NCBI GenBank assembly: GCA_027490255.1
Contig: JAIXYM010000104.1
Span: 1 to 64,000 of the forward strand
DNA: 64,000 bases
From: Oxalobacteraceae bacterium
Lineage (GTDB): Bacteria; Pseudomonadota; Gammaproteobacteria; Burkholderiales; Burkholderiaceae_D
Direction of reading: 5' to 3'
Positions 10,661 to 62,459 of the stretch are shown one piece after another. The translations under genes and the position numbers were made by a program. Each line of letters opens with the position of its first letter. Position 1 is the first letter of the stretch. The notes under the pieces are model-generated. The model was not told the DNA's origin and did no database searches. It saw only the letters and a program-made list of their open reading frames with translations.

Positions 10661-11491
10661 CTACTGTATGAAGCGAATTCGAATAGATCCAAGATCAATG
10701 CCCGAGGAAACACACGCATACGCTTCGCCCGCGTTGACCTTGACTGGGGGGCAAATTGAGTTAAGTGATATCAGGTCGTGCTGACGGAATGGTGAGCATC
10801 CGTCTATTTGGCACTGCCGTTGAAAAACTTCATATAGCTCACTGATAGATGAAATTGCGACATCAGAACCGGATGCGTAATTAATTAGTTGCGAACCGTC
10901 TTTTCTCACTCTATTTAAACTGAACATGGCGTGATTAACGACATCAGAAAAGTTGCGTTTACGTTTCTCGGAAAGTGTTCTTTCTTCGCCAATAGCAAGC
11001 TGATGTCCCATGCCATTCGAGCAGACTCTGTCTTCAAATGTCCACGCCGTACCTTTGAACGGCACCTGCAGAATCTCAATCGCGAGCGCAGCGCTCTCGA
11101 ACATTTGCGTAAACTGTTCTAGAGACGTAGACATGTCTGGGGCTTGAGAAATTTTTAGTACTACCTTAGGGTGCAGAAAAAGCCGAGAGGAATTGCGCGT
11201 TTTGAACACAAGTTCTTCGTCTTCTACGTACAAAGTTTGATCTGCGTAGTGATGGCCGAGACAGACTCGGGTTTGATCAATGGAGCCTCGCGTGCTTGAT
11301 TCGGAAATTACCTTACGCCCCACGGGATCAAGACCATTTGCAATGTTAAGTGTGTGCAAAGCATCGAGCGTTTGCATCGCGGTCTCGAGTGTCAGACCCA
11401 GCGTCGAGGCTTGTGGTGCTATGGCCTGGCGAGTTGAATCAACTGCCTTTATTGCATGCGCATAGGAATGTAATTTTGATGACAATAGCAT
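10661..11491 (-). CDS. Hydratase/decarboxylase-fold protein (MhpD-like) with lost metal ligands
   Basis: A 276-residue member of the fumarylacetoacetase-fold hydratases, whose known members hydrate 2-oxopent-4-enoate or decarboxylate 2-oxohex-3-enedioate in aromatic degradation. Family features: N-terminal helices with TLGLTLETAMQ, ALAIEILQVPF, VNHAMFSLNRVRKDG, and a C-terminus PPVKVNAGEAYACVSSGIDLGSIRIRF. At the metal site, where relatives read roughly HPRVEAEIAF, this protein reads HPKVVLKISQA, so two Glu ligands are replaced by Val and Lys; the third (AIE) is kept. It may therefore be inactive or have a new role. No aromatic-degradation genes are adjacent. The family call is by motif only. 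Confidence 0.65.
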   Translation of the reverse strand: MLLSSKLHSYAHAIKAVDSTRQAIAPQASTLGLTLETAMQTLDALHTLNIANGLDPVGRKVISESSTRGSIDQTRVCLGHHYADQTLYVEDEELVFKTRNSSRLFLHPKVVLKISQAPDMSTSLEQFTQMFESAALAIEILQVPFKGTAWTFEDRVCSNGMGHQLAIGEERTLSEKRKRNFSDVVNHAMFSLNRVRKDGSQLINYASGSDVAISSISELYEVFQRQCQIDGCSPFRQHDLISLNSICPPVKVNAGEAYACVSSGIDLGSIRIRFIQ

Positions 11492-20915: not shown

Positions 20916-23438
20916 TTATCTTAGGGAAAAATGCAGCTCAATTTTTTTGATGATGTTAAAGCACGGAAGTAACAGCAGGCCGATGAAGAAGCTACCCAGC
21001 CACGCTTGCCCACTCATTGGTGTGAAACGAAATGGCTCAGCCAGCACCGGAATGCAGGTGATGGCCGCCAGAGCCAGCAGCGTGATGCCCAGCACCCATA
21101 CCGAAGTGGGCGTCAGGTGGTACCAGAGTCGGTGCCATTCCGTTCGTGCTGAGCGGCTGGGCAGTATCAGCGCCGCATTGGCCGTCACCAGAACCACAAA
21201 TGCAGCCGTAGCTGCGGTGGTAGCAGCAATCTCTTGTGACAATAGCCAAGCATAGATACTAAAAATGAAAGCGGTGGTGAGGCTGCCATAGGCCACACTT
21301 CGCCAGATGTATTGCCCGGACAGCAGCGCCTCGTCGCTGCGGCGTGGCGGACGGCTCATTAGATCGGCATCGGCCTCTTCTGCTTCAAACACAATTGAGC
21401 AGGCCGGATCAATCACCAGTTCCAGAAAAGCGATGTGCAGTGGCGCCAATATCAGCGGTAGCCCGAAGAGTACCGGCAGCAGCGCCAGACCGGCGATGGG
21501 AATGTGTACCGCCAGCGTATAAATCATCGCCTGTCGCATGTTGGCGAAAGTACGTCTTCCCATGCGAATCGCCTGCACGATAGAATCAAAATCATCTTTG
21601 AGCAGTACCAGCGAGGCTGCTTCGCGTGCCACATCGGTGCCACGTTGTCCCATCGCGATACCAATATGTGCGGCCTTGAGTGCTGGCGCATCATTCACGC
21701 CATCCCCCGTCATCGCCACCACATGGCCTTGCGATTTCAGTGCTTCGACTAATGCCAGTTTTTGTGCAGGCCTAATACGCGCGAAGATATTGATCGTTGC
21801 TGCGCGATCGACGAGTTCATCCTGGCTCATGCCAAGGATCTCGCTACCAGTGATGATGCCGTCACTCTGAATACCGGCTTGCCGTGCAATCGCTTGCGCT
21901 GTACGCGGATGGTCGCCTGTAATCATTACCACGCGTATGCCGGCACGCAGACATTGCGCGACTGCCTTGGGTACTTCCTCGCGCAAGGGATCGGCCAGTG
22001 CGATCAATCCCAGCCACTGAAAATCAAATGCCTGCTGGTTTTCTGGCCACGGATGACCAGCAATGTGTACGGCTTTTGCGACACCTAGCACACGCAATCC
22101 CTGATCAGCCATCGCAGCAGCCTGCGTTGCGATCTCATCGTGCAAATTCTCGGAGAGTGCGCACAGCTCTGCCACTGCTTCAGGTGCGCCTTTGGCAGCA
22201 ACAACATCGTGCAGTCCAACTCCTGACTGCCACAAATGTGTCATAGCGAGCAACTGGGGGGAGAGTTCATATTCGCGTGCGAGACGCCAATCCGGATGCA
22301 GGCGATTCGTATCGGAGAGATGCGCGCCCGCCATGCGGTGAAATGCCTGCTCCATGGGATCATGCGGTGCGATCTCGCTGGCTAATATGGCGTACTCGAG
22401 AAGTTCGAGGTGAGTATCGGGCAGCGATGCAGACAGAGAGTCCGACAGAGAACCTGACAAGGGCTGACTGACATCGATGGCCCGGTTATCCGCACAAAGT
22501 ACCGCGACGCGCATGCGATTCTCAGTCAGCGTGCCGGTTTTATCGACACATAGCACCGAGGTCTCGCCCAGGGTCTCTATCGAATTCAGGCGACGCGTCA
22601 ATACCTTTTGCGCTGCCAGTCGACGTGCCGCCATCGCCATGAAAATAATCATGATGACCGCGAACTCCTGTGGTAACAAAGACATGGCTAAGGCAATGCC
22701 AGCCAGTAGCGCATCCAGCCAGCCACCACGCAGCAACCAGAACAGCAGTACCAGCCCGCAAGATAATCCGATACTGAAGGTCGCAAGTCGTCGGGTGAGT
22801 CGGCCCATCTCTTCACGCAGCGGTGAAGGCGTGATCGCAATGCTTTCCAGCGACTTGCCGATGCGGCCCATTTCGGTGTGATGTGCAGTCGCCGTGACTT
22901 GAACGACACCCTGACCAGCGACCACCAGTGTTCCTGCATACACTTTGTCGCCGGATTTTTTCATCACCGACTCGGATTCACCGGTGAGCATTGATTCATT
23001 AGTTGCGAGCTCATGCGCGTCAATTAGTAGGCCGTCGGCTGGAATGCGGTCGCCTTCGGCGAGTAACAACACATCCTCGCGAACCACATCCCTGCCGGCG
23101 ATGCGCAGCGCTTCGCCGCCGCGTATCACCACTGCGCGCGGGCTCGACATATCGCGTAGTGCGGCCAGCGCATTGTCGGTACGTCGCTCCTGAAATGCGG
23201 TCATCCCCATGATCATGAATACAAAGCTCAGCAGTATCAGCGCCTCATGACTATCGCCCATTGCAAAATAGATGGCGCCAGCTCCCAGCAATAGCAAGAA
23301 CATCGGCTCGCGTACAACTTCGAGCAGGATGTCGGCCAGCGTGCGGCGCTGCGAGAGGCCCAGCTCATTCGGACCTTCTTTATGCAGACGCTTGCGAGCG
23401 AAATTCGCATCAAGGCCGCGGGGCAGGGGAGGTGTCAT
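20916..23438 (-). CDS. P-type cation-transporting ATPase (P2-like)
   Basis: Inner-membrane ion pump of 840 residues. The actuator motif is TGES; the phosphorylation site is CVDKTGTLTENRM; the hinge is MTGDGVNDAPALKAAHIGIAMG. The N-terminal cation-ATPase domain starts LPRGLDANFARKRLHKEGPNEL. In membrane helix 4, calcium pumps read PEGLP, whereas this protein reads LLPQEF, so the ion may not be calcium. It is about 40-60 residues shorter than typical bacterial calcium pumps. I prefer ATG 23438; a TTG at 23462 adds eight residues. It is divergent from a beta-CASP nuclease. Confidence 0.9.
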   Translation of the reverse strand: MTPPLPRGLDANFARKRLHKEGPNELGLSQRRTLADILLEVVREPMFLLLLGAGAIYFAMGDSHEALILLSFVFMIMGMTAFQERRTDNALAALRDMSSPRAVVIRGGEALRIAGRDVVREDVLLLAEGDRIPADGLLIDAHELATNESMLTGESESVMKKSGDKVYAGTLVVAGQGVVQVTATAHHTEMGRIGKSLESIAITPSPLREEMGRLTRRLATFSIGLSCGLVLLFWLLRGGWLDALLAGIALAMSLLPQEFAVIMIIFMAMAARRLAAQKVLTRRLNSIETLGETSVLCVDKTGTLTENRMRVAVLCADNRAIDVSQPLSGSLSDSLSASLPDTHLELLEYAILASEIAPHDPMEQAFHRMAGAHLSDTNRLHPDWRLAREYELSPQLLAMTHLWQSGVGLHDVVAAKGAPEAVAELCALSENLHDEIATQAAAMADQGLRVLGVAKAVHIAGHPWPENQQAFDFQWLGLIALADPLREEVPKAVAQCLRAGIRVVMITGDHPRTAQAIARQAGIQSDGIITGSEILGMSQDELVDRAATINIFARIRPAQKLALVEALKSQGHVVAMTGDGVNDAPALKAAHIGIAMGQRGTDVAREAASLVLLKDDFDSIVQAIRMGRRTFANMRQAMIYTLAVHIPIAGLALLPVLFGLPLILAPLHIAFLELVIDPACSIVFEAEEADADLMSRPPRRSDEALLSGQYIWRSVAYGSLTTAFIFSIYAWLLSQEIAATTAATAAFVVLVTANAALILPSRSARTEWHRLWYHLTPTSVWVLGITLLALAAITCIPVLAEPFRFTPMSGQAWLGSFFIGLLLLPCFNIIKKIELHFSLR

Positions 23439-40988: not shown

Positions 40989-41039
40989 CCGGGGGTGAAT
41001 CCAAATCGTCCAATCACGTACACCGAGGCCCTGACGCCC

Positions 41040-42044
41040 ATGAGTGCTCAACAGCCCCAGTCTGGCCCGCTCGCTACGCCAGACGCCAGTGCCAAAGGCC
41101 TGCCAACCGCGACATCGTCTGCCAAATGGCAGGACTTTATTTTCCATAAAGTCACATTCAGCTTTGCTTTGCTGGTGCTCCTGGCTCTAGTCGGGATTAT
41201 GGTGTCACTGGTCATTAACGCCATACCTGCGTTTGAAAAATTTGGTCCAGGGTTTGTTACCCGCATCGAGTGGGATCCGGTTAATAACGAATACGGTGCA
41301 ATGATCGCGATTGCCGGTACCTTGGTCACGTCTTTACTCGCACTGATGATCGCATTTCCAGTCAGTTTTGGTATTGCTTTGTTTTTGACAGAGATTTGCC
41401 CTGTCTGGTTGAAGCGCCCCTTGGGCACCGCTATCGAGTTGCTGGCCGGCGTCCCCAGTATTATTTACGGCATGTGGGGACTGTTTATTTTTGCCCCTTT
41501 CTTCGCGGATCATGTGCAGCCTTTGCTGCAGGCAACGCTGGGTAAAATCCCTGTGATTGGTGAATTGTTTCAAGGGGCGATGATGGGCATCGGCATGCTG
41601 ACGGCCGGCATCATCTTGGCGGTCATGATCATTCCTTTCATTGCGTCGGTCATGCGTGACGTGTTTGAGACCTGCCCGGCAGTATTGAAGGAGTCTGCTT
41701 ACGCGCTGGGTTGTACGCGCTGGGAAGTCGTCCGCAGAATCGTACTGCCGTACACACGGGTTGGTGTGGTCGGCGGTGTCATGCTGGGGCTGGGTCGTGC
41801 TCTAGGTGAAACCATGGCCATTACCTTTGTGATCGGTAATGCGCACAAACTTTCGTGGTCACTGTTCGCAGCGGGTAACAGTATTGCATCGACACTGGCC
41901 AATGAGTTTGCTGAAGCTGAGGCGGGATTACACATTTCATCCCTGTTTGCCCTGGGTCTGATTTTGTTTGTCATTACTTTCATCGTGCTCGCAGCTGCGA
42001 AGTTCATGCTGCTGCAGATGGGCAAAGGGGAGGGTAGCAAATGA
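41040..42044 (+). CDS. pstC: High-affinity phosphate ABC transporter permease
   Basis: Inner-membrane permease (334 residues from ATG 41040) that moves phosphate handed over by PstS. About six helices; PstC features [44 protein letters not shown] and the coupling loop [25 protein letters not shown] at 40995 would give 349 residues but coincides with the predicted transcription start. The ATGA at the 3' end overlaps pstA. First gene of the pstCAB-phoU-phoB-phoR unit under a Pho box. Confidence 0.94.
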
Positions 42045-42916
42045 ACCCGGTCGCAGTACTCAAGTCTGACAATCCTATTTATCGTGCGCGCTTGCTACGA
42101 CACAGGATAGGTATCACTTTATCTGTGGCAGCGATGTCGACGGGGCTGATGTTTCTGTTATGGATATTGACTGTGCTCGTCATCAACGGGCTTGGTGCCA
42201 TTGATGCGGATTTCTTTACGAAAACAACGCCAGCCCCCGGTAGCGAGGGTGGTGGTCTGCTCAACCCTATTGTTGGCAGTCTGCTGATGGTCGGTACCGC
42301 AACGCTGATTAGCACCCCTATCGGTATTTTTGCGGGTATCTACCTTGCAGAATACGGCGAGGAAAGCCGATTCGCACAAATCACCCGATTCGTGACCGAT
42401 GTCATGCTGTCTGCGCCTTCGATCGTGATCGGTTTGTTCATTTATGCGATTTATGTGGCCAACGTGCGCCACTTCTCCGGTTGGGCGGGTAGCTTTGCGA
42501 TTGCCCTCATTGCAATACCGGTGGTGGTGCGCACCACAGACAACATGCTCATATTGGTCCCCAGCAGCCTGCGTGAGGCGGCTTTTGCATTAGGAGCGCC
42601 ACGCTGGAAGGTCGCCACCATGGTTCGCTTACGCGCTGTCAAGGCCGGTGTCTTGACCGGTGTATTGCTCGCGGTAGCCCGCATTTCCGGCGAGACAGCG
42701 CCTCTCTTGTTTACTGCGCTGAACAACCAGTTTTATAGTACCGACATGAATACGCCGCTGGCGAACTTGCCCGTGGTGATCTTCCAGTTTGCGATGAGTC
42801 CCTATGACAACTGGCGCGAGCTGGCCTGGGGCGGTGCGTTACTAATTACCTTCAGCGTATTGGGTCTGAATATTTTGTCGCGCCTTATCGCGGCGGCTGG
42901 CCAGAAAAAGGAATAG
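42041..42916 (+). CDS. pstA: High-affinity phosphate ABC transporter permease
   Basis: Second phosphate permease subunit, 291 residues, six helices. PstA landmarks: [43 protein letters not shown], and coupling loop [19 protein letters not shown], ending with [12 protein letters not shown]. Overlaps pstC by 4 nt and precedes pstB by 9 nt. Confidence 0.95.
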
Positions 42917-42925
42917 GAGTAGGAA

Positions 42926-43726
42926 ATGGAATTCGCGATACCAACGCATGAGAAGATGGATACGGCTTCGTTCACCACAACCTTGCAGGTTCAAGATCTG
43001 AACTTTTTTTACGGACAGTTTCAAGGGCTTAAAGATATCAATCTGGATATCTACGAAAGAAAAGTCACTGCATTCATTGGTCCTTCCGGCTGCGGCAAGT
43101 CGACACTGCTGCGCACGCTTAATCGCATGTATGACCTGTATCCAGGCCAGCGCGCCGAGGGCGTCATCATGTACAGCGGACGCAATATTCTGGATGCCGA
43201 TGTAGATGTGAACGTATTGCGCGCAAAGATAGGCATGGTGTTCCAGAAGCCAACGCCGTTTCCGATGTCGATCTATGAAAACATCGCCTTTGGCGTGCGT
43301 CTGTATGAAAACCTGACCCGGGGTGAGATGGATGAGCGAGTGGAATGGGCGCTGAACAAGGCAGCGCTTTGGGCAGAGGTTAAAGACAAGCTTCATAAGA
43401 GTGGCTTGTCTCTGTCGGGTGGTCAGCAGCAGCGTTTGTGTATCGCTCGTGCCGTGGCCGTGAAGCCAGATGTGCTCTTACTGGACGAGCCCACATCGGC
43501 ACTGGATCCGATCTCAACGGTGAAAATCGAAGAGCTGATCAGCGAACTCAAGGAAGACTACACGATCACCATCGTGACGCACAATATGCAGCAGGCAGCA
43601 CGCTGCTCGGATTTCACCGCGTACATGTATTTGGGAGAACTGGTAGAGTTCGGTGAAACTGATAAGATTTTTCTGAATCCCAGCAAAAAAGAAACGCAGG
43701 ATTACATCACCGGTCGTTTCGGTTGA
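42926..43726 (+). CDS. pstB: Phosphate ABC transporter ATPase
   Basis: ATPase of 266 residues energising Pst. [18 protein letters not shown] near the N-terminus, Walker [14 protein letters not shown]-loop [16 protein letters not shown], signature [14 protein letters not shown], Walker [15 protein letters not shown]-loop [17 protein letters not shown] precedes the ATG. With PhoU it also signals phosphate status to PhoR. Confidence 0.96.
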
Positions 43727-43742
43727 TGCCACGGAGACCGCC

Positions 43743-44444
43743 ATGCCAAACGAACACTCTTCCAGACAATACGAGCTCGATCTTGAGGCGATTCGCTCGC
43801 GGGTCCTGCAGATGGGTGGACTCGTAGAAAAGCAATTTCACGATGCGATGCTTTGTTTCCGGACGCTTGATGTCAAGGAAGCCGCGCGTATTAAGGCTAC
43901 CGACGAGGAAGTGAACACCCTCGAGGTTCAGCTGGATGACGCTTGTAGTCATCTGATCGTCAAGCGGCAACCGGCTGCGAATGATTTGCGGACTGTGATG
44001 GCCACGATCAAGATCATTACGGATCTCGAGCGTATAGGTGACGAGGCGACCAAAATTGCCCGTGCCGCGCGCGCCTTGAATGAGCGTGGTGCGGTACCGA
44101 TCGCCCATGAAGAGACAGTGCGCGTCATGGCTTCTTCCGCGGGTCGTCAATTGCATGGTGCACTGGACGCGTTTGCTCGTCTGGATGAAAAGCAGGCGAC
44201 ACGCTTGATTCTGGGTGATGAGGAAATTGATATCGAATATCGCGCCGTGATGCGTAACGCCGTCACCTTCATGATGGAAGATCCACGCACTATTTCTGCT
44301 TCACTTGACACGCTGTGGGTCGCCAAGGCTATCGAACGTATTGGTGATCATGCCAAAAACATTGCCGAGTACGTGATCTACATCGTGGAAGGCAAGGATA
44401 TTCGCCACACCGACTATGCGTCTTCTCAGCAAGAGTCCCTCTAA
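43743..44444 (+). CDS. phoU: Phosphate signalling protein PhoU
   Basis: Negative regulator (233 residues) linking Pst transport to the PhoR kinase. Two three-helix repeats; the metal-binding motifs ITDLERIGDEATKIA (residues ~97) and KAIERIGDHAKNIAEYVIY (residues ~200) are intact. It follows pstB by 16 nt and precedes phoB by 53 nt in the usual order. Confidence 0.96.
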   Translation: MPNEHSSRQYELDLEAIRSRVLQMGGLVEKQFHDAMLCFRTLDVKEAARIKATDEEVNTLEVQLDDACSHLIVKRQPAANDLRTVMATIKIITDLERIGDEATKIARAARALNERGAVPIAHEETVRVMASSAGRQLHGALDAFARLDEKQATRLILGDEEIDIEYRAVMRNAVTFMMEDPRTISASLDTLWVAKAIERIGDHAKNIAEYVIYIVEGKDIRHTDYASSQQESL

Positions 44445-44497
44445 TCGGTCCTCTAAACGGCCCAATAATCGGCCGTGCATAGTAAGTCACTGAGCTT

Positions 44498-45187
44498 ATG
44501 GCCATCACCGAACCCACGATCCTGATCGTTGAAGACGAGATTCCCATTGTCGAGTTGGTCTCCTTTTCGCTGAAGGGGGCTGGCTGGGTAGTGGATGCCG
44601 TACACAACACGGCAGATGCCTGGACTTATCTCCAGAACAAACGTCCTCAGCTGATTCTGCTGGATTGGATGTTGCCTGATCAGTCAGGACTCAAGTTATT
44701 GTCCCGTATCCGCAGCGATCGTAATTTCAACACGCTGCCCGTGATCATGCTGACCGCAAAAAGCATGGAAGAGGACAAGGTCGCGGGGCTCGATCAGGGC
44801 GCCGATGATTACATCACCAAACCTTTCTCTCCGCGCGAGCTGACCGCCCGTATCAAGGCCCTCATACGCCGCAAAATGCCCGAGCATGCCGAGCTCGCGA
44901 TGAAGGCTGGACCGCTGACCGTCGATCCGGTGAGCTGTCGGGTCAGTATCGATGATGAGCCAGTAGAAATCGGCCACGCCGAATTCAAGCTACTCAGATT
45001 CCTGATCGCGCATCCCGAAAGAGTCTTCACCCGTGGCCAGCTGCTCGACAAAGTCTGGGGCGATCATGCCGTTCTGGAAGAGAGAACGGTGGATGTCCAT
45101 ATCTTGCGGTTGCGCAAGGCCCTCGGTCGGGCCGATTTCCTCATCAAGACCGTGCGTAGTGTAGGCTACATGCTTTCTGAGAAATAA
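44498..45187 (+). CDS. phoB: Phosphate regulon response regulator PhoB
   Basis: OmpR-type regulator of 229 residues that binds Pho boxes. Receiver: ILIVEDEIPIVE, LILLDWMLPDQSG (phospho-Asp), VIMLTAKS, DYITKPFSPREL. C-terminal winged helix: GHAEFKLLRFLIAHPERVFTRGQLLDKVWG and RTVDVHILRLRKAL. It is likely the activator of the Pho boxes listed here. phoR follows by 12 nt. Confidence 0.95.
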   Translation: MAITEPTILIVEDEIPIVELVSFSLKGAGWVVDAVHNTADAWTYLQNKRPQLILLDWMLPDQSGLKLLSRIRSDRNFNTLPVIMLTAKSMEEDKVAGLDQGADDYITKPFSPRELTARIKALIRRKMPEHAELAMKAGPLTVDPVSCRVSIDDEPVEIGHAEFKLLRFLIAHPERVFTRGQLLDKVWGDHAVLEERTVDVHILRLRKALGRADFLIKTVRSVGYMLSEK

Positions 45188-45199
45188 TTCCTTTTTTGC

Positions 45200-46498
45200 A
45201 TGACGCCTCGCTCGTTGTTTTGGATTCCGGTATTTGTCCGGTTCATATTGATTTGGGCGGCCGGACTGGCTGGCTGGTCTTTGTGGAACTTGACCGTCGG
45301 CCTTGCCATCTCATTGATTGTGCTCACACTGCTGGTGATCATGCAGCTGCGGCATATGTACCAGCTGTCTCTTTGGCTTGACCAGCCTGAAGAAGTTCGC
45401 TTGGGCGATGGCTGGGGAGCCTGGACAGAGATCTTCGCCAAACTGTACCGCTTGCGCCGTGATGACGAGCGTAGTCGCAATGAGTTGGCTGAGTGGCTTT
45501 CTCGTTTTCGTCTGGCGATGAGCCAGCTACCTGATGGTGTCGTCATCATGGATGACGTTCTCTTCCTTGAATGGTGCAATCCGGTTGCCGAGCAACATCT
45601 CGGGCTCAGCATGGCCAAGGACAAGGGTATGCGTGTCACTAACTTGGTACGCAGCCCTGAATTCATTGATTACATTATTCTGGGACGTTACGAAGAGCCG
45701 CTCACGCTGAAGCTGGATGAGCGCAAGTTGATTGCTCGCCTCATCCCCTTCGAAAACCGTCGTCAGATTCTGGTCACGCATGATGTGACGGATATGGACA
45801 GGATAGAGCAGATGCGTCGTGATTTCATCGCGAATGCGTCGCATGAATTACGAACGCCTCTGACCGTCATCAACGGCTTTCTCGAGATCGCCCACATGCA
45901 GCCCGATCTTGATCCGCAGACGCGCGCTCGACATCTAGAGCTCATGGTTGATCAAGGGCAGCGCATGCAAAACCTGGTGGATGACATGCTGGTACTCACT
46001 CGGCTGGAGTCACTGGATTATCCCGTTCGTGAAGAAGTACTCGACATGCACAGACTGCTGGAGCAGGTGCGTGCCGAAGGTGAGGCCTTGTCTGCGGGTA
46101 GACACAAAGTCAGTCTGGAGTTCAACGGACCGCGACTCAAGGGGAGTCATGACGAGCTTCGTAGTGCGATCGGGAATCTGGTGTCCAATGCCGTGCGTTA
46201 CACTGCAGAGGGTGGCGACATCACGATACGCTGGTTTGAAAGTGTACAAGGCCCTTGCTGCTCAGTCAGTGATACGGGTATCGGGATCAAGCCAGAGCAT
46301 ATCGCTCGGCTGACTGAGCGCTTTTATCGTGTTGATAAAGGTCGGTCTCGCGAAACGCAGGGCACCGGTTTGGGACTTGCGATCGTCAAGCATGTGCTGG
46401 CACGCCATGACGCGCAGCTACGCGTCGAATCAGAAGCCGGCAAGGGCAGCACCTTTACCATTCAGTTTCCGGCGCTCGCACGCGTTAAACTGGCCTAA
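45200..46498 (+). CDS. phoR: Phosphate regulon sensor histidine kinase PhoR
   Basis: Membrane kinase of 432 residues. Two short N-terminal helices (FRFILIWAAGLAGWSLW region and AISLIVLTLLVIMQL), then a charged linker and PAS domain (PDGVVIMDDVLFLEWCNPVAEQHLG). Kinase core: H-box NASHELRTPLTVINGF, N-box SAIGNLVSNAVRYT, G1 DTGIGI, G2 GTGLGLAIVKH. It phosphorylates PhoB at low phosphate. It has no large periplasmic loop, as in other PhoR proteins that sense through PstB-PhoU. Confidence 0.95.
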   Translation: MTPRSLFWIPVFVRFILIWAAGLAGWSLWNLTVGLAISLIVLTLLVIMQLRHMYQLSLWLDQPEEVRLGDGWGAWTEIFAKLYRLRRDDERSRNELAEWLSRFRLAMSQLPDGVVIMDDVLFLEWCNPVAEQHLGLSMAKDKGMRVTNLVRSPEFIDYIILGRYEEPLTLKLDERKLIARLIPFENRRQILVTHDVTDMDRIEQMRRDFIANASHELRTPLTVINGFLEIAHMQPDLDPQTRARHLELMVDQGQRMQNLVDDMLVLTRLESLDYPVREEVLDMHRLLEQVRAEGEALSAGRHKVSLEFNGPRLKGSHDELRSAIGNLVSNAVRYTAEGGDITIRWFESVQGPCCSVSDTGIGIKPEHIARLTERFYRVDKGRSRETQGTGLGLAIVKHVLARHDAQLRVESEAGKGSTFTIQFPALARVKLA

Positions 46499-46551
46499 GC
46501 GACTGTCTTCACGATAGTCTGAATGATAGTCTGAACGATTGTTCGCGCCAC

Positions 46552-55096: not shown

Positions 55097-55233
55097 AAAG
55101 ACGCTGGATCCCGGCTTTCGCTGGGATGACAGTGGGAGTTTTACTGTCGCCTTAAACACTTCGGTCGACTAAAGCACTTCTGTTACCTTAACCACTACCG
55201 TCATCCCGGCGAAAGCCGGGATCCAGTGTCTTT
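55097..55233. repeat. Pair of inverted dispersed-repeat units (REPIN-like)
   Basis: Two 34-bp arms (55097-55130 and 55200-55233) are inverted copies with two mismatches, 69 bp apart. Each contains its own small palindrome around CCGGC-GAAA-GCCGG. The core wording (GTCATCCCGGCGAAAGCCGG) is a widespread extragenic repeat type in proteobacteria. It lies in the 283-bp convergent gap between sixA and the lipid operon and could act as terminator for both. Confidence 0.85.
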
Positions 55234-58671: not shown

Positions 58672-58716
58672 TTATTAATGCAAGACAATGACGGTTAGAT
58701 TGCAGTTCGATGACAA
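58672..58716 (-). promoter_or_regulatory. Triple Pho box and -10 of the lipid-remodelling operon
   Basis: On the minus strand: TTGTCAT-CGAA-CTGCAAT-CTAA-CCGTCAT (58716 to 58688), three PhoB half-sites in an exact 11-bp register, then 10 nt, then TAATAA (58677 to 58672). Predicted start near 58665, 33 nt before the ATG. It lies between the phoX stop and the operon, so the operon has its own PhoB-driven promoter. Confidence 0.88.
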
Positions 58717-58725
58717 GTGCAATCG

Positions 58726-60924
58726 TTAAATGAGATCAGCGCCGATAAGTCCGCCATCTTTGCGTGTGATGACGATGGTGGCAGATCGCGGTCGCGCCGC
58801 GCCACCGTCGGGCCAATGACTCAGATAGCTCGCCGGATTAGCGATACTGAAGTCTTTGCCGTTAGTGGTTTCGCCCGGATGCTGGATGTTAATGAACAGC
58901 GCACGTCCGTCAGGCGATTCAGCCAGGCCTGTAATTTCGCAATCGACAGGCCCCACCAGAAAACGGCGCAATGAGGATGCCTCTGCTGGTTTACCGATAT
59001 GCGTTGTCATCGAACGTTCTTTGTCTTCTTCGCGATTGACGATGCTGCGCGTACCACCGTCACCGACCTTACCGGGGATGGCCGCCAGCAGCATGCAGTT
59101 GCTGGCATCGCGATACGCATGATCATCCGTCTCTATCCAAAGCAAACCACTACGCGCAAACCATAACCCGTCCGGGCTAGAGAAGTCATTGTCGGCGGTT
59201 AGTCCGGACAGATTGATATTCTGGGGATCTGCGCTCGAGCGTGCCGCAAACAGAAACACATCCCACTGAAATTTTGTTGCAGCGACCCGGCCCTCGTTCT
59301 CGGCCCAGCGGATAATGTGGCCATTGACGTTGCCCTTGCCATTCCCTTTGCCTCTGCTTTTACCCGAGTCGCCCGCATGCGTGTCGTTGTATACGCGCGG
59401 ATTGGCTGCATCGATCTGATCAAGTGCGCGCGAGGGATTGTAGGTTAGGGTCATGTAGACCTCGCCGTTGCGTGGATTGACAGCGCCCCATTCAGGCCGG
59501 TCCATGCGCGTAGCGCCCGCAGCATCGGCGGCCAGACGGGCATGAATCAACACATCGGCCTGATCGCTGAATGCATAGTTGGCGTAATTGGCATCGATGT
59601 TATTCAGGCCGAATTTCAGCTCCAGCCAGTCGCCCGTGCCGTCAGCATTGAAACGTGCAGCGTAGAGCTTGCCTTCATTAAGATACTTGTCGCCAGCAGC
59701 GAGGCCACGCTTGGCATCACTGGGATCCCATACGGCGTTGGAGACGTATTTGTAAATGTATTCATTGCGCGCATCGCAGCCCATGTACCAGACCAGAGGC
59801 TGCCCTGGGATTACTGGGCCGGGCCACGCACCCTCATGCGCGAAACGACCTAATGCCGTTCGCTTTTTTGGGCTGACGCTCGGCGAAAAAGGGTCAATTT
59901 CAACGACCCAGCCAAAGGTATTGGCGGCGTTACGGAAATCATCACTGCCGTTGTTTGATGTGCCGGTAACAGCGTTATGCCAGCGACCGAATCGCTGATC
60001 TGCTGTATCGGGTTGCACGCTGGCCCACAAATGCTTTCCCTTACCCTCAATGCCATACCGACGCAAGGCAGTCAGTTCTTTGGCGCTGCGTTTTGCATTG
60101 TCGGATTCACCACGCTTGAAAAATCCCGCCCAGTTTTCCTCGCAGGTGAGGTAGGTACCCCAGGGCGTATGGCCATTCGCGCAATTGGCGATCGTGCCGC
60201 GGGTGCGGGTACCTGTGATTGAATACTTCGTGATCAGTTGCGGACTGCGCGCTGCCGGGCCCGTGAGCTCCATGTCAGTGAAAGGCGTAATGCGGCGGTT
60301 CAGTGTCGAATCCTGCTGTGTGACGTAGCTGCCCTGATGTCGGCGCACTTCGACGATCGATACGCCATGTGCCAACATCTCTTTCATGACCTCTTCTTCC
60401 GAAATGCGCTTGCCGTCGGCAACGGTCTCACCCTGCGGATGTAGAAATGTGGCGGTGATCGCCTCATTATTAATGCAAAGCAGACCACGTTCTGAGCGCT
60501 GCGCATCCCAGCGGGCAGTGTTGTTCATGCCAAAGAAGTGCATGCCATCATGATGATCACCCACACGTCGGGTAAAGCTGCTGGCTTCATCGCTGCCATC
60601 GTTGGCATAAGCCGGAAGATCGGCTGACAGCGGATCACCCGTAGCTAACAGCACCTGCCATTGATAGCCATTGGCGATCGTGATTTTGTCATCAAGACTT
60701 TTGGGTATTGCCTGGAAATTGAGTTTCAGTGCGCGCGTCGCTGCCTGAACATCGCCGCTGGCTGACAGGCTCAGACTGCCACCCAGATAAGTCGTGGCTG
60801 CCGTTGCAAGACTACCCTTGAGCAGGTTGCGACGGGACAGGCGCGCCGTGAGCACGCTGTCGAAGTCGGGCGATGCCGCAGTATCTTCCGCGACAGGTGC
60901 AGCGGTGGACGAAAGATCACGCAC
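58726..60924 (-). CDS. phoX: PhoX-family alkaline phosphatase, Tat-exported
   Basis: Periplasmic or outer-surface phosphatase (732 residues) releasing phosphate from organic esters. Twin-arginine signal LSRRNLLKGSLATAATTYLGG about 30 residues in; PhoX (DUF839) landmarks HDGMHFFGMNN, CINNEAITATFLHP, CANGHTPWGTYLTCEENW, GRFAHEGAWP, MGCDARNEYIYKYVS and SPDGLWFARSGLLWIETD. The start is GTG 60924, 6 nt after AGGAGG. It is followed by the lipid operon and preceded by a Pho box. Calcium and iron are the usual cofactors in this family. Confidence 0.94.
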   Translation of the reverse strand: MRDLSSTAAPVAEDTAASPDFDSVLTARLSRRNLLKGSLATAATTYLGGSLSLSASGDVQAATRALKLNFQAIPKSLDDKITIANGYQWQVLLATGDPLSADLPAYANDGSDEASSFTRRVGDHHDGMHFFGMNNTARWDAQRSERGLLCINNEAITATFLHPQGETVADGKRISEEEVMKEMLAHGVSIVEVRRHQGSYVTQQDSTLNRRITPFTDMELTGPAARSPQLITKYSITGTRTRGTIANCANGHTPWGTYLTCEENWAGFFKRGESDNAKRSAKELTALRRYGIEGKGKHLWASVQPDTADQRFGRWHNAVTGTSNNGSDDFRNAANTFGWVVEIDPFSPSVSPKKRTALGRFAHEGAWPGPVIPGQPLVWYMGCDARNEYIYKYVSNAVWDPSDAKRGLAAGDKYLNEGKLYAARFNADGTGDWLELKFGLNNIDANYANYAFSDQADVLIHARLAADAAGATRMDRPEWGAVNPRNGEVYMTLTYNPSRALDQIDAANPRVYNDTHAGDSGKSRGKGNGKGNVNGHIIRWAENEGRVAATKFQWDVFLFAARSSADPQNINLSGLTADNDFSSPDGLWFARSGLLWIETDDHAYRDASNCMLLAAIPGKVGDGGTRSIVNREEDKERSMTTHIGKPAEASSLRRFLVGPVDCEITGLAESPDGRALFINIQHPGETTNGKDFSIANPASYLSHWPDGGAARPRSATIVITRKDGGLIGADLI

Positions 60925-60968
60925 TTGATACCTCCTGATAAAAATACATTTTTTACAATTTGATCACA

Positions 60969-61002
60969 AATCTGTGAATCCCTCATGACAAGCGAATGTC
61001 AC
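60969..61002 (-). promoter_or_regulatory. Pho box upstream of phoX
   Basis: On the minus strand: GTGACAT-TCGC-TTGTCAT (61002 to 60985), 10 nt, then a weak -10 CAGATT (60974 to 60969). Predicted start near 60962, 38 nt before the GTG. The -10 is poor, as in strongly activator-dependent promoters. Confidence 0.75.
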
Positions 61003-61004
61003 TC

Positions 61005-61080
61005 CCTTATCAATCGCTCATCAAGTGCTCAACAAGGGCTCATCAAGCGTTTGATGAATGCTTGATGAATGCTTGTCACC
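61005..61080. repeat. Array of 11-bp units that inverts at its centre
   Basis: Units in one unbroken 11-bp register: CCTTATCAATC, GCTCATCAAGT, GCTCAACAAGG, GCTCATCAAGC, then GTTTGATGAAT, GCTTGATGAAT, GCTTGTCACC (last one cut). The second half is the reverse complement type of the first, so the array is a palindrome of phased repeats. It begins 3 bp from the phoX Pho box and lies in the divergent gap to the gene at 61193. Confidence 0.85.
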
Positions 61081-61192
61081 GTCATTAAATATTTGGCCGA
61101 TAAGCTGAATCGAAGAGACTTGGGTGTTTCCGGGTCAGAGCAGTGCTCCACCGCGGGTCGTCGCACTGTCTTCGAGAGCGAGTATTTTGCCT

Positions 61193-61606
61193 ATGAATGC
61201 CACAGACATGTTGACAGATTGGCCGCAGCGCCAGCCTTCGGGTTACGCCGACTGGCTATCGCCGTATCTTGTCGAGTGCGGTTCTTTATGGCAGCGAGAA
61301 GCTTTGCCACAAAACACGGTGCTGTTATTGGTGGCCGGAGCCGATTACGCCGGTAATTTGGTGCTTTCGCAGCTCAGATCGAAACAGGCATTATCGACGG
61401 TATTGACTGATTCAAAGGTCACAATGGCCTATGCAGACCGCAGTGTCGTGCAAGAGAGTATTCATTTCGTTTACGACTCTCTGAGTCTGGAGTTCACGCC
61501 CCCTGAGATTGATCAGCTCACTACAACAATGCACCCACTGTTGGTCTTTGCTGACACTGAGGTGTTTTTACTTGATGGCGCGCAGAACTGTCCTGTGTTT
61601 TTGTAA
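61193..61606 (+). CDS. Protein of unknown function, 137 residues
   Basis: Not recognised. The product begins MNATDMLTDWPQRQPSGYADW and has a hydrophobic strand VLLLVAGADYAGNLVLSQL, followed by LSTVLTDSKVTMAYADRSVVQESIHFVYDSL and PLLVFADTEVFLLDGAQNCPVFL. No signal peptide or membrane helix is certain. Start could also be the ATG at 61208. The stop TAA is followed directly by the GTG of the DUF3047 gene, so the two are one unit divergent from phoX. Coding is supported by that coupling and by normal codon use. Confidence 0.6.
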   Translation: MNATDMLTDWPQRQPSGYADWLSPYLVECGSLWQREALPQNTVLLLVAGADYAGNLVLSQLRSKQALSTVLTDSKVTMAYADRSVVQESIHFVYDSLSLEFTPPEIDQLTTTMHPLLVFADTEVFLLDGAQNCPVFL

Positions 61607-62386
61607 GTGAACAGTAAAGGCCGCGTCATATGCTGGATTTTTTGTGCCAAGTTACGCGCTAGCGTATCTGCGCTGTTACTGTACTTTCCGGTGCTAGTGT
61701 TGGCGGGCGTGGCTGAGGTCAGCGTAGGACGTTTCGATACTGAGCTGACCACCTTGCCCACGGCGTGGCAAGTGATTCAGCTAGAAAAAAATGTATCCCC
61801 AACGCAGTACCGTCCTTTGTACTGGGATGGTGTGCATGCGATTGAATCACAAGCCAATCGAAGTATGGCCTTGCTGGGTCGAAAAGTGGATGTGGATCTG
61901 ACTGCGACGCCTGTGCTGTGCTGGCGCTGGCGCGCCGAGGACGTCTTGAAAAAAGCCGACATGAAACGCCGTCAGGGCGATGACTATGCTGCGCGCGTCT
62001 ATATTGCGTTCGCATTACCTGCGGATGCACTAAGTTTTACGGACAAGGCGGCGTTGTCCGTTGCACGCGCGCTTTTTGGCGATCGTGTACCCGACGCGGC
62101 GATTAATTATGTGTGGGATAACCGGCATCCCGTCGATACCCGCATGTCCAACGCCTATACCGATCGAGCGCAGATGATTGTTCGTCGAGCCGGTCATGCC
62201 GATGTTGGTCGCTGGGTGACCGAGCGTGTCGATGTCAGAGATGATGTGATTCGCGCTTTTGGCAGTGACAAAGCAAGGCCCATCCTGCTAGCCATTGCCT
62301 CTGATACGGACAACACGGGCGAGAAAGTACGTGCCGGCTTTGCCGATCTGCATTTCGTTGGAAAGAACGACGCCTGTAATTTCTGA
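61607..62386 (+). CDS. DUF3047 secreted protein
   Basis: Product of 259 residues. An N-terminal hydrophobic signal (FCAKLRASVSALLLYFPVLVLAG) precedes a beta-rich domain of the DUF3047 family: VGRFDTELTTLPTAWQVIQL, LCWRWRAEDVLKKADMKRRQGDDYAARVYI, AINYVWDNRHP, and the end IASDTDNTGEKVRAGFADLHFV. Function unknown. Start codon GTG immediately after the previous stop (TAAGTG), so translational coupling is likely. Convergent with ppx. Confidence 0.85.
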   Translation: MNSKGRVICWIFCAKLRASVSALLLYFPVLVLAGVAEVSVGRFDTELTTLPTAWQVIQLEKNVSPTQYRPLYWDGVHAIESQANRSMALLGRKVDVDLTATPVLCWRWRAEDVLKKADMKRRQGDDYAARVYIAFALPADALSFTDKAALSVARALFGDRVPDAAINYVWDNRHPVDTRMSNAYTDRAQMIVRRAGHADVGRWVTERVDVRDDVIRAFGSDKARPILLAIASDTDNTGEKVRAGFADLHFVGKNDACNF

Positions 62387-62420: not shown

Positions 62421-62459
62421 ATGCATTTCTAATGCATTCCTGATGCATCTCTGATGCAA
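62421..62459. repeat. Tandem 11-bp repeats between DUF3047 gene and ppx
   Basis: ATGCATTTCTA, ATGCATTCCTG, ATGCATCTCTG, ATGCAAC: three full units and a partial one in an exact 11-bp register, in the 91-bp convergent gap. Confidence 0.85.

Follow-up and report, generated by a model that had tools for sequence, protein, structure and literature searches.

The window analysed here, a stretch of 64,000 nucleotides from a genome represented by one 3.09-Mb assembly in 166 contigs, carries a phosphate-starvation cluster. A permease gene in the pstC position, an ABC transporter ATPase gene, phoU, a phoB-like regulator gene, and phoR lie at 40995-46498, with the last three spanning 43743-46498. The phoB-like regulator scored 284.9 bits, slightly below the TIGR02154 cut-off of 296.2. 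The window also encodes a pstS-like gene and ppk, which are divergently arranged, as well as ppx. On the 3′ side of phoX are genes for an acyltransferase, a metallophosphatase in the plcP position, and an MGDG-synthase-like glycosyltransferase; the names plcP and pstC are assigned from family and position only, and the enzymes most similar to the acyltransferase are ornithine-lipid enzymes, at scores below the family cut-offs. The plcP-agt pair is described in PMC4796936 as a lipid-remodelling arrangement that carries Pho boxes. Divergent from phoX is a two-gene unit that begins at 61193, and the intergenic region between them contains the array that is the subject of this study (Table 1). Among the 21 genus genomes, three near relatives have close homologues of the 61193 protein (70 to 71% identical), and three others have weak matches of 23 to 26%.

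Table 1. Genes, regulatory sites, and tandem arrays discussed in the text (window coordinates unless another locus is named)
Feature	Position	Strand	Description
phoX (PF05787)	58726-60924	-	First gene of the phosphate-starvation group
137-aa protein (61193 gene)	61193-61606	+	No Pfam match
DUF3047 protein (PF11249)	61607-62386	+	
Conserved element GATCACAAATCTGTGAAT (+ strand letters)	60962-60979	-	Identical in four genomes; more half-site-like words at 11-bp spacing toward phoX (TTGTGAT at 60963)
Pho box of phoX	60974-61002	-	Overlapping 18-mers TTGTCATGAGGGATTCAC (10.9 bits) and GTGACATTCGCTTGTCAT (6.5 bits) in the Pho matrix scan
Array, left half	61005-61048	-	Four 11-bp TTGATGA-type units toward phoX; + strand starts 61005, 61016, 61027, 61038, reverse complements GATTGATAAGG, ACTTGATGAGC, CCTTGTTGAGC, GCTTGATGAGC; Tandem Repeats Finder 61016-61047
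Array, right half	61049-61070	+	Two 11-bp units toward the 61193 gene, GTTTGATGAAT at 61049 and GCTTGATGAAT at 61060
Centre of inversion CAAGCGTTTG	61044-61053		9 of 10 letters shared with the head-to-head junction of relative G018 (locus L080), 8 of 10 with that of L087 and of L089
Segment of 66 bp missing in relatives G005, G018, and G012	61001-61066		MAFFT alignment; exact position uncertain within a few bases
Best Pho-like 18-mer of the array, CATTCATCAAGCATTCAT	61054-61071	-	5.2 bits, rank 47 of 127,966 window positions
Pho half-site TTGTCAC and following sequence	61073-61090	+	Faces the 61193-DUF3047 genes; CCGTCAT at 61079 also high-scoring
11-bp tandem array ATGCATTTCTG, 3.5 copies	62421-62458		Between convergent DUF3047 and ppx; two units more than in 3 of 3 relatives (by reading)
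12-bp tandem array	44437-44474		Across and after the phoU stop, before phoB; unrepeated in G005, G018, and G012, altered units in G017 (by reading)
11-bp tandem array TTTCGCCTCTG	L147:15058-15088		In the tail of a terminator-like hairpin; exceeds 4 of 4 relatives (G017, G012, G018, G005) by one unit

Pho sites were scored with a matrix made from 31 sites in the ppk/pstS intergenic regions of 16 relatives; the window's own region (L100) was left out, and so was one of the 32 strand-specific best sites (L099, minus strand), which fell below the threshold. Within the window, the matrix gave 23.6 bits at pstS, 17.1 at ppk, 15.2 at pstC, 10.9 at phoX, and 10.6 at the acyltransferase gene. Scores of 12 to 18 bits were also reached at five other places (22227, 11468, 59966 within phoX, 54008 within ppk, and 27722), so scores of about 10 bits are no proof of a Pho site. 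Two of these places, 22227-22244 (17.9 bits) and 11468-11485 (14.8 bits), lie outside the recognised phosphate genes and may be Pho targets or chance matches. Two overlapping Pho-like 18-mers (10.6 and 9.6 bits) are also found at 58688-58716, between phoX and the acyltransferase gene, and the lipid-remodelling genes may possess a second Pho promoter there.

The sequence at 61005-61080 is an 11-bp-phased array in which four units run one way and two are inverted, followed by a genuine Pho half-site. The identity at lag 11 over 61001-61080 is 0.67, compared with 0.50 at lag 22 and no more than 0.30 at the remaining lags from 5 to 22. With 41 matches in 56 positions, the array has the best count of any lag from 6 to 30 across the 64-kb window, while the maximum in 20 dinucleotide-shuffled windows was 33 in the same frame. 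The whole array is not a product of chance, and its description in the earlier note as an 11-bp array that inverts at its centre is borne out. Tandem Repeats Finder reports the two halves separately (61016-61047 and 61051-61075, each with a score of 50); 4 of 10 shuffled windows also yielded one tandem row scoring at least 45, which makes either half, taken by itself, only mildly unusual. The same note had counted six to seven units at a distance of 3 bp from the phoX Pho box. The seventh 11-mer, GCTTGTCACCG at 61071, contains TTGTCAC, a real Pho half-site (at the 99.95th percentile within the window), so the array proper consists of six units; it does lie against the phoX Pho box between the divergent promoters, at 2 bp from the half-site that ends at 61002.

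A Pho box is defined in PMC4415409 as two 11-bp direct repeats, each with seven conserved and four less conserved letters, and the array shares this 7 + 4 architecture of direct repeats at 11-bp spacing. The word TTG recurs at 60991, 61013, 61024, 61035, and 61046 on the minus strand and at 61051, 61062, and 61073 on the plus strand. The units thus hold the 11-bp register of both flanking Pho half-sites, which makes a link to PhoB operators sensible. The neighbouring genes also fit, since phoX is a phosphate-starvation gene and the genome encodes a phoB-like regulator. The flanking sites agree with the lineage consensus of the (C/T)TGTCA(T/C) type in the Pho matrix scan, and the inner units do not: the inner half-sites score at most 1.2 bits, compared with 8.4 to 9.7 bits for the strong flanking half-sites. 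With its limits set at 61001-61066, the insert scores at best 0.5 bits in the matrix, a value reached by 16% of 1,938 window tiles of 66 bp, and the inserted DNA was therefore set aside as a source of strong PhoB sites; the 5.2-bit site extends five bases to the right of this insert. The seven core letters of the unit vary little, with 2 departures in 42 cells compared with 9 in 24 for the other four letters. This lower variation could mean selection, at P = 0.026 when departures are counted and 0.12 when extra letters are counted, both with free choice of the block.

Matches to phoX are present in 18 of the 21 genus genomes, the window's genome included. In three of them (G005, G018, and G012), the PhoX protein is 93, 90, and 89% identical, respectively, and the divergent arrangement with the 61193 and DUF3047 genes is retained. 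The array is missing from all three, and their two Pho boxes stand head to head. The MAFFT alignment shows a single clean gap of 66 bp, exactly 6 × 11, with otherwise colinear flanks; the distance between the anchors ATGACA(A/G) and TTGTCACC is 81 bp in the window and 15 bp in each of the three relatives. The flanking promoter elements are conserved in the relatives. The earlier note had proposed a cooperative operator or architectural site and had named absence from close relatives with conserved promoters as the sign of neutral slippage; this absence is what all three comparators display, and the array is judged from these alignments not to be a conserved operator. We do not file it as a Pho box either, because its inner units depart from the consensus and none of the three relatives with the same promoter pair has conserved it. 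The array is known from one genome and one assembly, with the three relatives as comparators.

Among more distant members of the genus, ten regions upstream of phoX (L056-L063, L065, and L066) also have no array, although most of them lack the same gene arrangement. The best lag-11 count out of 36 positions is 13 to 17 in these ten, 17 to 20 in the three near relatives, and 28 in the window. No array was seen upstream of two distant phoX paralogues (L070 and L072) or a split phoX (L071), which are outside the ten counted, and 4 of the 21 loci (L064, L067, L068, and L069) have no usable upstream DNA. The sister genome G017, whose acyltransferase is 95% identical, would have made the best dating point for the array, but was rejected because a search of its assembly found neither this promoter nor the 61193 gene.

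The un-expanded site of the relatives points to how such an array could have arisen. There, the quasi-palindrome TGTCAAGCGCTTGTCA (L080) arises where the two outermost Pho half-sites face each other head to head; L087 and L089 each differ from it by one letter. Compared with the phoX-side unit of L080, GCTTGACATAC, the six units match at 37 of 66 letters in the alignment register and at no more than 22 in the other ten registers; against the opposite arm, the counts are 28 in register and at most 23 in the others. Since the units resemble one another, the 37 of 66 is nearer to one test than to six. Features expected of a template-switch product are present, namely a quasi-palindrome at the un-expanded site of the relatives, inverted copies in the array, and a matching centre. 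Quasi-palindromes are hotspots of template switching in Escherichia coli, as described in PMC7202029.

On balance, we favor the reading that the array is a 66-bp expansion at the junction of head-to-head Pho boxes, produced by 11-bp duplication together with template switching, and that it acts mainly as a spacer. The ancestral state, as judged from the three relatives, would be the quasi-palindrome of the two outermost Pho half-sites. Copying errors may then have duplicated the 11-bp Pho unit on the phoX side, a strand switch at the palindrome may have laid inverted copies on the other side, and the units would have drifted after duplication. In all likelihood, PhoB continues to act through the flanking half-sites, which are intact, with the inserted units serving chiefly as spacer DNA (66 bp, about 6.3 turns) that offers at most weak extra PhoB contacts. 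We infer both this route and the lack of a dedicated function. As two Pho boxes already stand head to head in the relatives, the central inversion would be inherited and requires no design. Several observations count against this reading: the consensus unit agrees with its presumed parent, the phoX-side unit of L080, in just 7 of 11 positions (by hand); the right-hand units require a separate inversion step; the core varies less than the remaining letters; and similar arrays elsewhere in the order include clear Pho operators.

Short tandem arrays are frequent in this genome. A sample of 427 kb (the window plus 20 stretches, with the array itself included) has 16 short tandem loci of period 7 to 25 in its noncoding DNA, compared with a mean of 2.1 and a maximum of 6 in 20 shuffles, and 8 of period 10 to 13 compared with 1.2. 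A 223-kb sample of G005 displays a tandem excess too (7 loci versus 1.4), which suggests that the habit of forming tandem arrays is a trait of the group and not of this genome alone. Three unrelated arrays of 11 or 12 bp are longer here than in relatives and lie at a gene end, a hairpin, and the phoU stop (Table 1). Because these are not promoter sites, the period of 11 bp needs no helical explanation and, taken alone, is uninformative about helical phasing. Another 12-bp tandem array, ACGATAGTCTGA, is located at 46511-46539, immediately downstream of phoR. The array at L150:19482-19530 was rejected as a private expansion, as G017 is identical to it over 649 bp and the three other relatives differ in sequence there. 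This identity, 649 of 649 bases at L150:19182-19830 while the acyltransferase protein differs by 5%, could reflect recent exchange or strong local conservation.

The most serious competitor, which we regard as possible but doubtful, is that the array is an extended Pho operator, in which PhoB would nucleate at the strong flanks and line the weak 11-bp half-sites from both sides, linking the induction of phoX with that of the 61193 gene. The shared register of the units and flanking sites, the less variable cores, and the rank of CATTCATCAAGCATTCAT in the window are all consistent with such an operator. However, the inner half-sites score far below the strong flanks, the conserved part of the unit is TTGATGA and not TGTCA, a reading based on TCAT shifts the units by 3 bp from the register of the Pho sites on either side, and the three relatives have kept their promoters with no array.

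Similar series in other genomes of the order bear on the same question. We searched 399 genomes for a triple TTGATGA series with up to 2 mismatches and found it in 11, including this one, compared with 1 for the backward control. Such a pattern contains TCAT at 11-bp spacing by construction, and the evidence from this search consists only of the matrix scores and the neighbouring genes. At 5 of the 10 other genomes, the Pho-matrix site at the series outscores all 25 other segments of its locus, with scores of 20.3, 15.9, 12.3, 8.7, and 4.6 bits; the other five matches have no such excess, and the window's own locus is not special, as 2 of its 25 other segments score equal or better. The strongest series, CTGTCATAAAACGGTCAC (20.3 bits), adjoins a glycosyltransferase gene, and CTGTCATAAATTCTTCAT (15.9 bits) and CTTTCATCAACCTTTCAT (12.3 bits) are both in four-unit arrays. 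In three genomes of one genus, the triple series adjoins a gene for a zinc-dependent phospholipase C, as tested on two of these three proteins. In other species, such arrays can be multi-unit Pho operators, judging from these scores and neighbours, and extended Pho operators may be common in the order; all those seen run in one direction, which sets them apart from the array studied here. The array may offer weak supplementary binding to PhoB. Three- or four-unit Pho-like tandem arrays were recorded at the locus centres of L204, L205, L206, L208, L209, and L211, from other genomes of the order. Their neighbours include a glycosyltransferase (L204) and zinc-dependent phospholipase C (L206 and L209 by Pfam, and the L208 homologue by sequence).

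A bolder idea, and in our estimate an improbable one, is that a Pho operator is being built at this site. The array would then be a duplicated two-way ladder of weak half-sites, with PhoB spreading along it from each of the strong ends, so that the lipid-remodelling operon of phoX becomes coupled to the 61193/DUF3047 pair, with selection already holding the seven core letters.

We see little chance that an ancestral array was lost by deletion in the lineage leading to G005, G018, and G012. The DNA identity of the 61193 gene is 82 to 87% among the three relatives compared with 76 to 77% to the window, and that of the DUF3047 gene is 86 to 90% compared with 81 to 84%. The three are thus mutually closer at both genes, and a single loss in a shared ancestor could account for all three absences; the phoX tree does not resolve how the four genomes branch. 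A deletion between repeats would likewise remove a multiple of 11 bp, but it should leave one unit behind, and the 300 bp upstream of phoX in the relatives contain no TTGATGA or TCATCAA. The ten more distant upstream regions, with lag-11 counts of 13 to 17 compared with 28, also speak against an ancestral array, though most lack the same gene arrangement. A gain therefore seems likelier than a loss.

It is very unlikely that the array is the operator of another regulator, an OmpR-family or architectural protein that would recognise TTGATGA at 11-bp spacing. The TTGATGA core is indeed distinct from the Pho consensus, the PhoB model has 21 matches in the genome, which gives many possible OmpR-family regulators, and TTGATGA pairs with up to 2 mismatches occur 52 times in the genome versus 4 for the backward pattern. 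The excess of pairs, however, follows from word frequency, as the 427-kb sample contains 181 single TTGATGA words compared with 21 of AGTAGTT. Spacing 11 is not favored either, with 6 TTGATGA pairs versus a mean of 13.1 at other spacings in the same sample with the array masked. Several targets would be usual for a dedicated regulator, and the search for further arrays of this unit type that the earlier note had suggested turned up no other series in the genome. On these counts, the idea of a regulon of the unit across the genome was rejected, and the array is absent from the relatives as well. A hairpin, cruciform, or transcript element in place of a protein site is slightly less probable still: although the single-strand DNA fold of 60985-61090, with its 12-bp central stem, beats 200 of 200 shuffles (z = -3.3), any inverted array would fold equally well, the array lies between two promoters where neither transcript is expected, and no Rfam match up to E = 1 was found in 60700-61400, so both a hairpin function and an RNA element were set aside.

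Short intergenic tandem arrays that arise by duplication are minisatellite-like. The array resembles them in that its unit number differs from that of relatives, as in the unrelated arrays of the same genome, and differs from them in lying inside a divergent promoter and in reversing direction at its centre. It resembles a Pho box in its 11-bp unit, its register with the flanking half-sites, and its position between two Pho promoters; unlike a Pho box, its units keep TTGATGA/TCATCAA instead of CTGTCAT, score low, invert, and are not conserved in relatives. Complex Pho operators with a variable number of direct repeat units (Streptomyces PhoP) or multiple PHO boxes (E. coli ugp) are described in PMC4415409, and the array is similar to them in that a single phosphate promoter carries three or more 11-bp units. 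These are operators described in the literature, whereas the present array is known from sequence alone, has degenerate units, and changes direction. Relative to the E. coli template-switch events described in PMC7202029, the likeness lies in the quasi-palindrome that the relatives carry at the insertion point and in inverted copies as a natural product, and the difference is that those events perfect a quasi-palindrome, while a six-unit array of 66 bp needs repeated duplication too.

Our search of the open-licence literature found no report of 11-bp tandem direct repeats of PhoB/Pho box type or of the tandem duplication of a divergent Pho box. With the un-expanded state preserved in three relatives, the locus shows how a bidirectional regulatory region can differ by an inverted array of operator-length units whose total is an exact multiple of 11 bp. 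A further caution is that periodicity of 11 bp next to an operator can arise through duplication and need not be evidence of helical phasing. If the units do bind PhoB, the array would directly exemplify how an operator grows step by step.

Repeats of another kind also occur in this genome. Inverted elements of the CCCGGCGAAAGCCGGGATCCAG type are present at 55100-55220, around an 18-bp tandem array, and at L161:10073-10407, where they are in tandem with a period of 127; they look like members of a dispersed palindromic repeat family.
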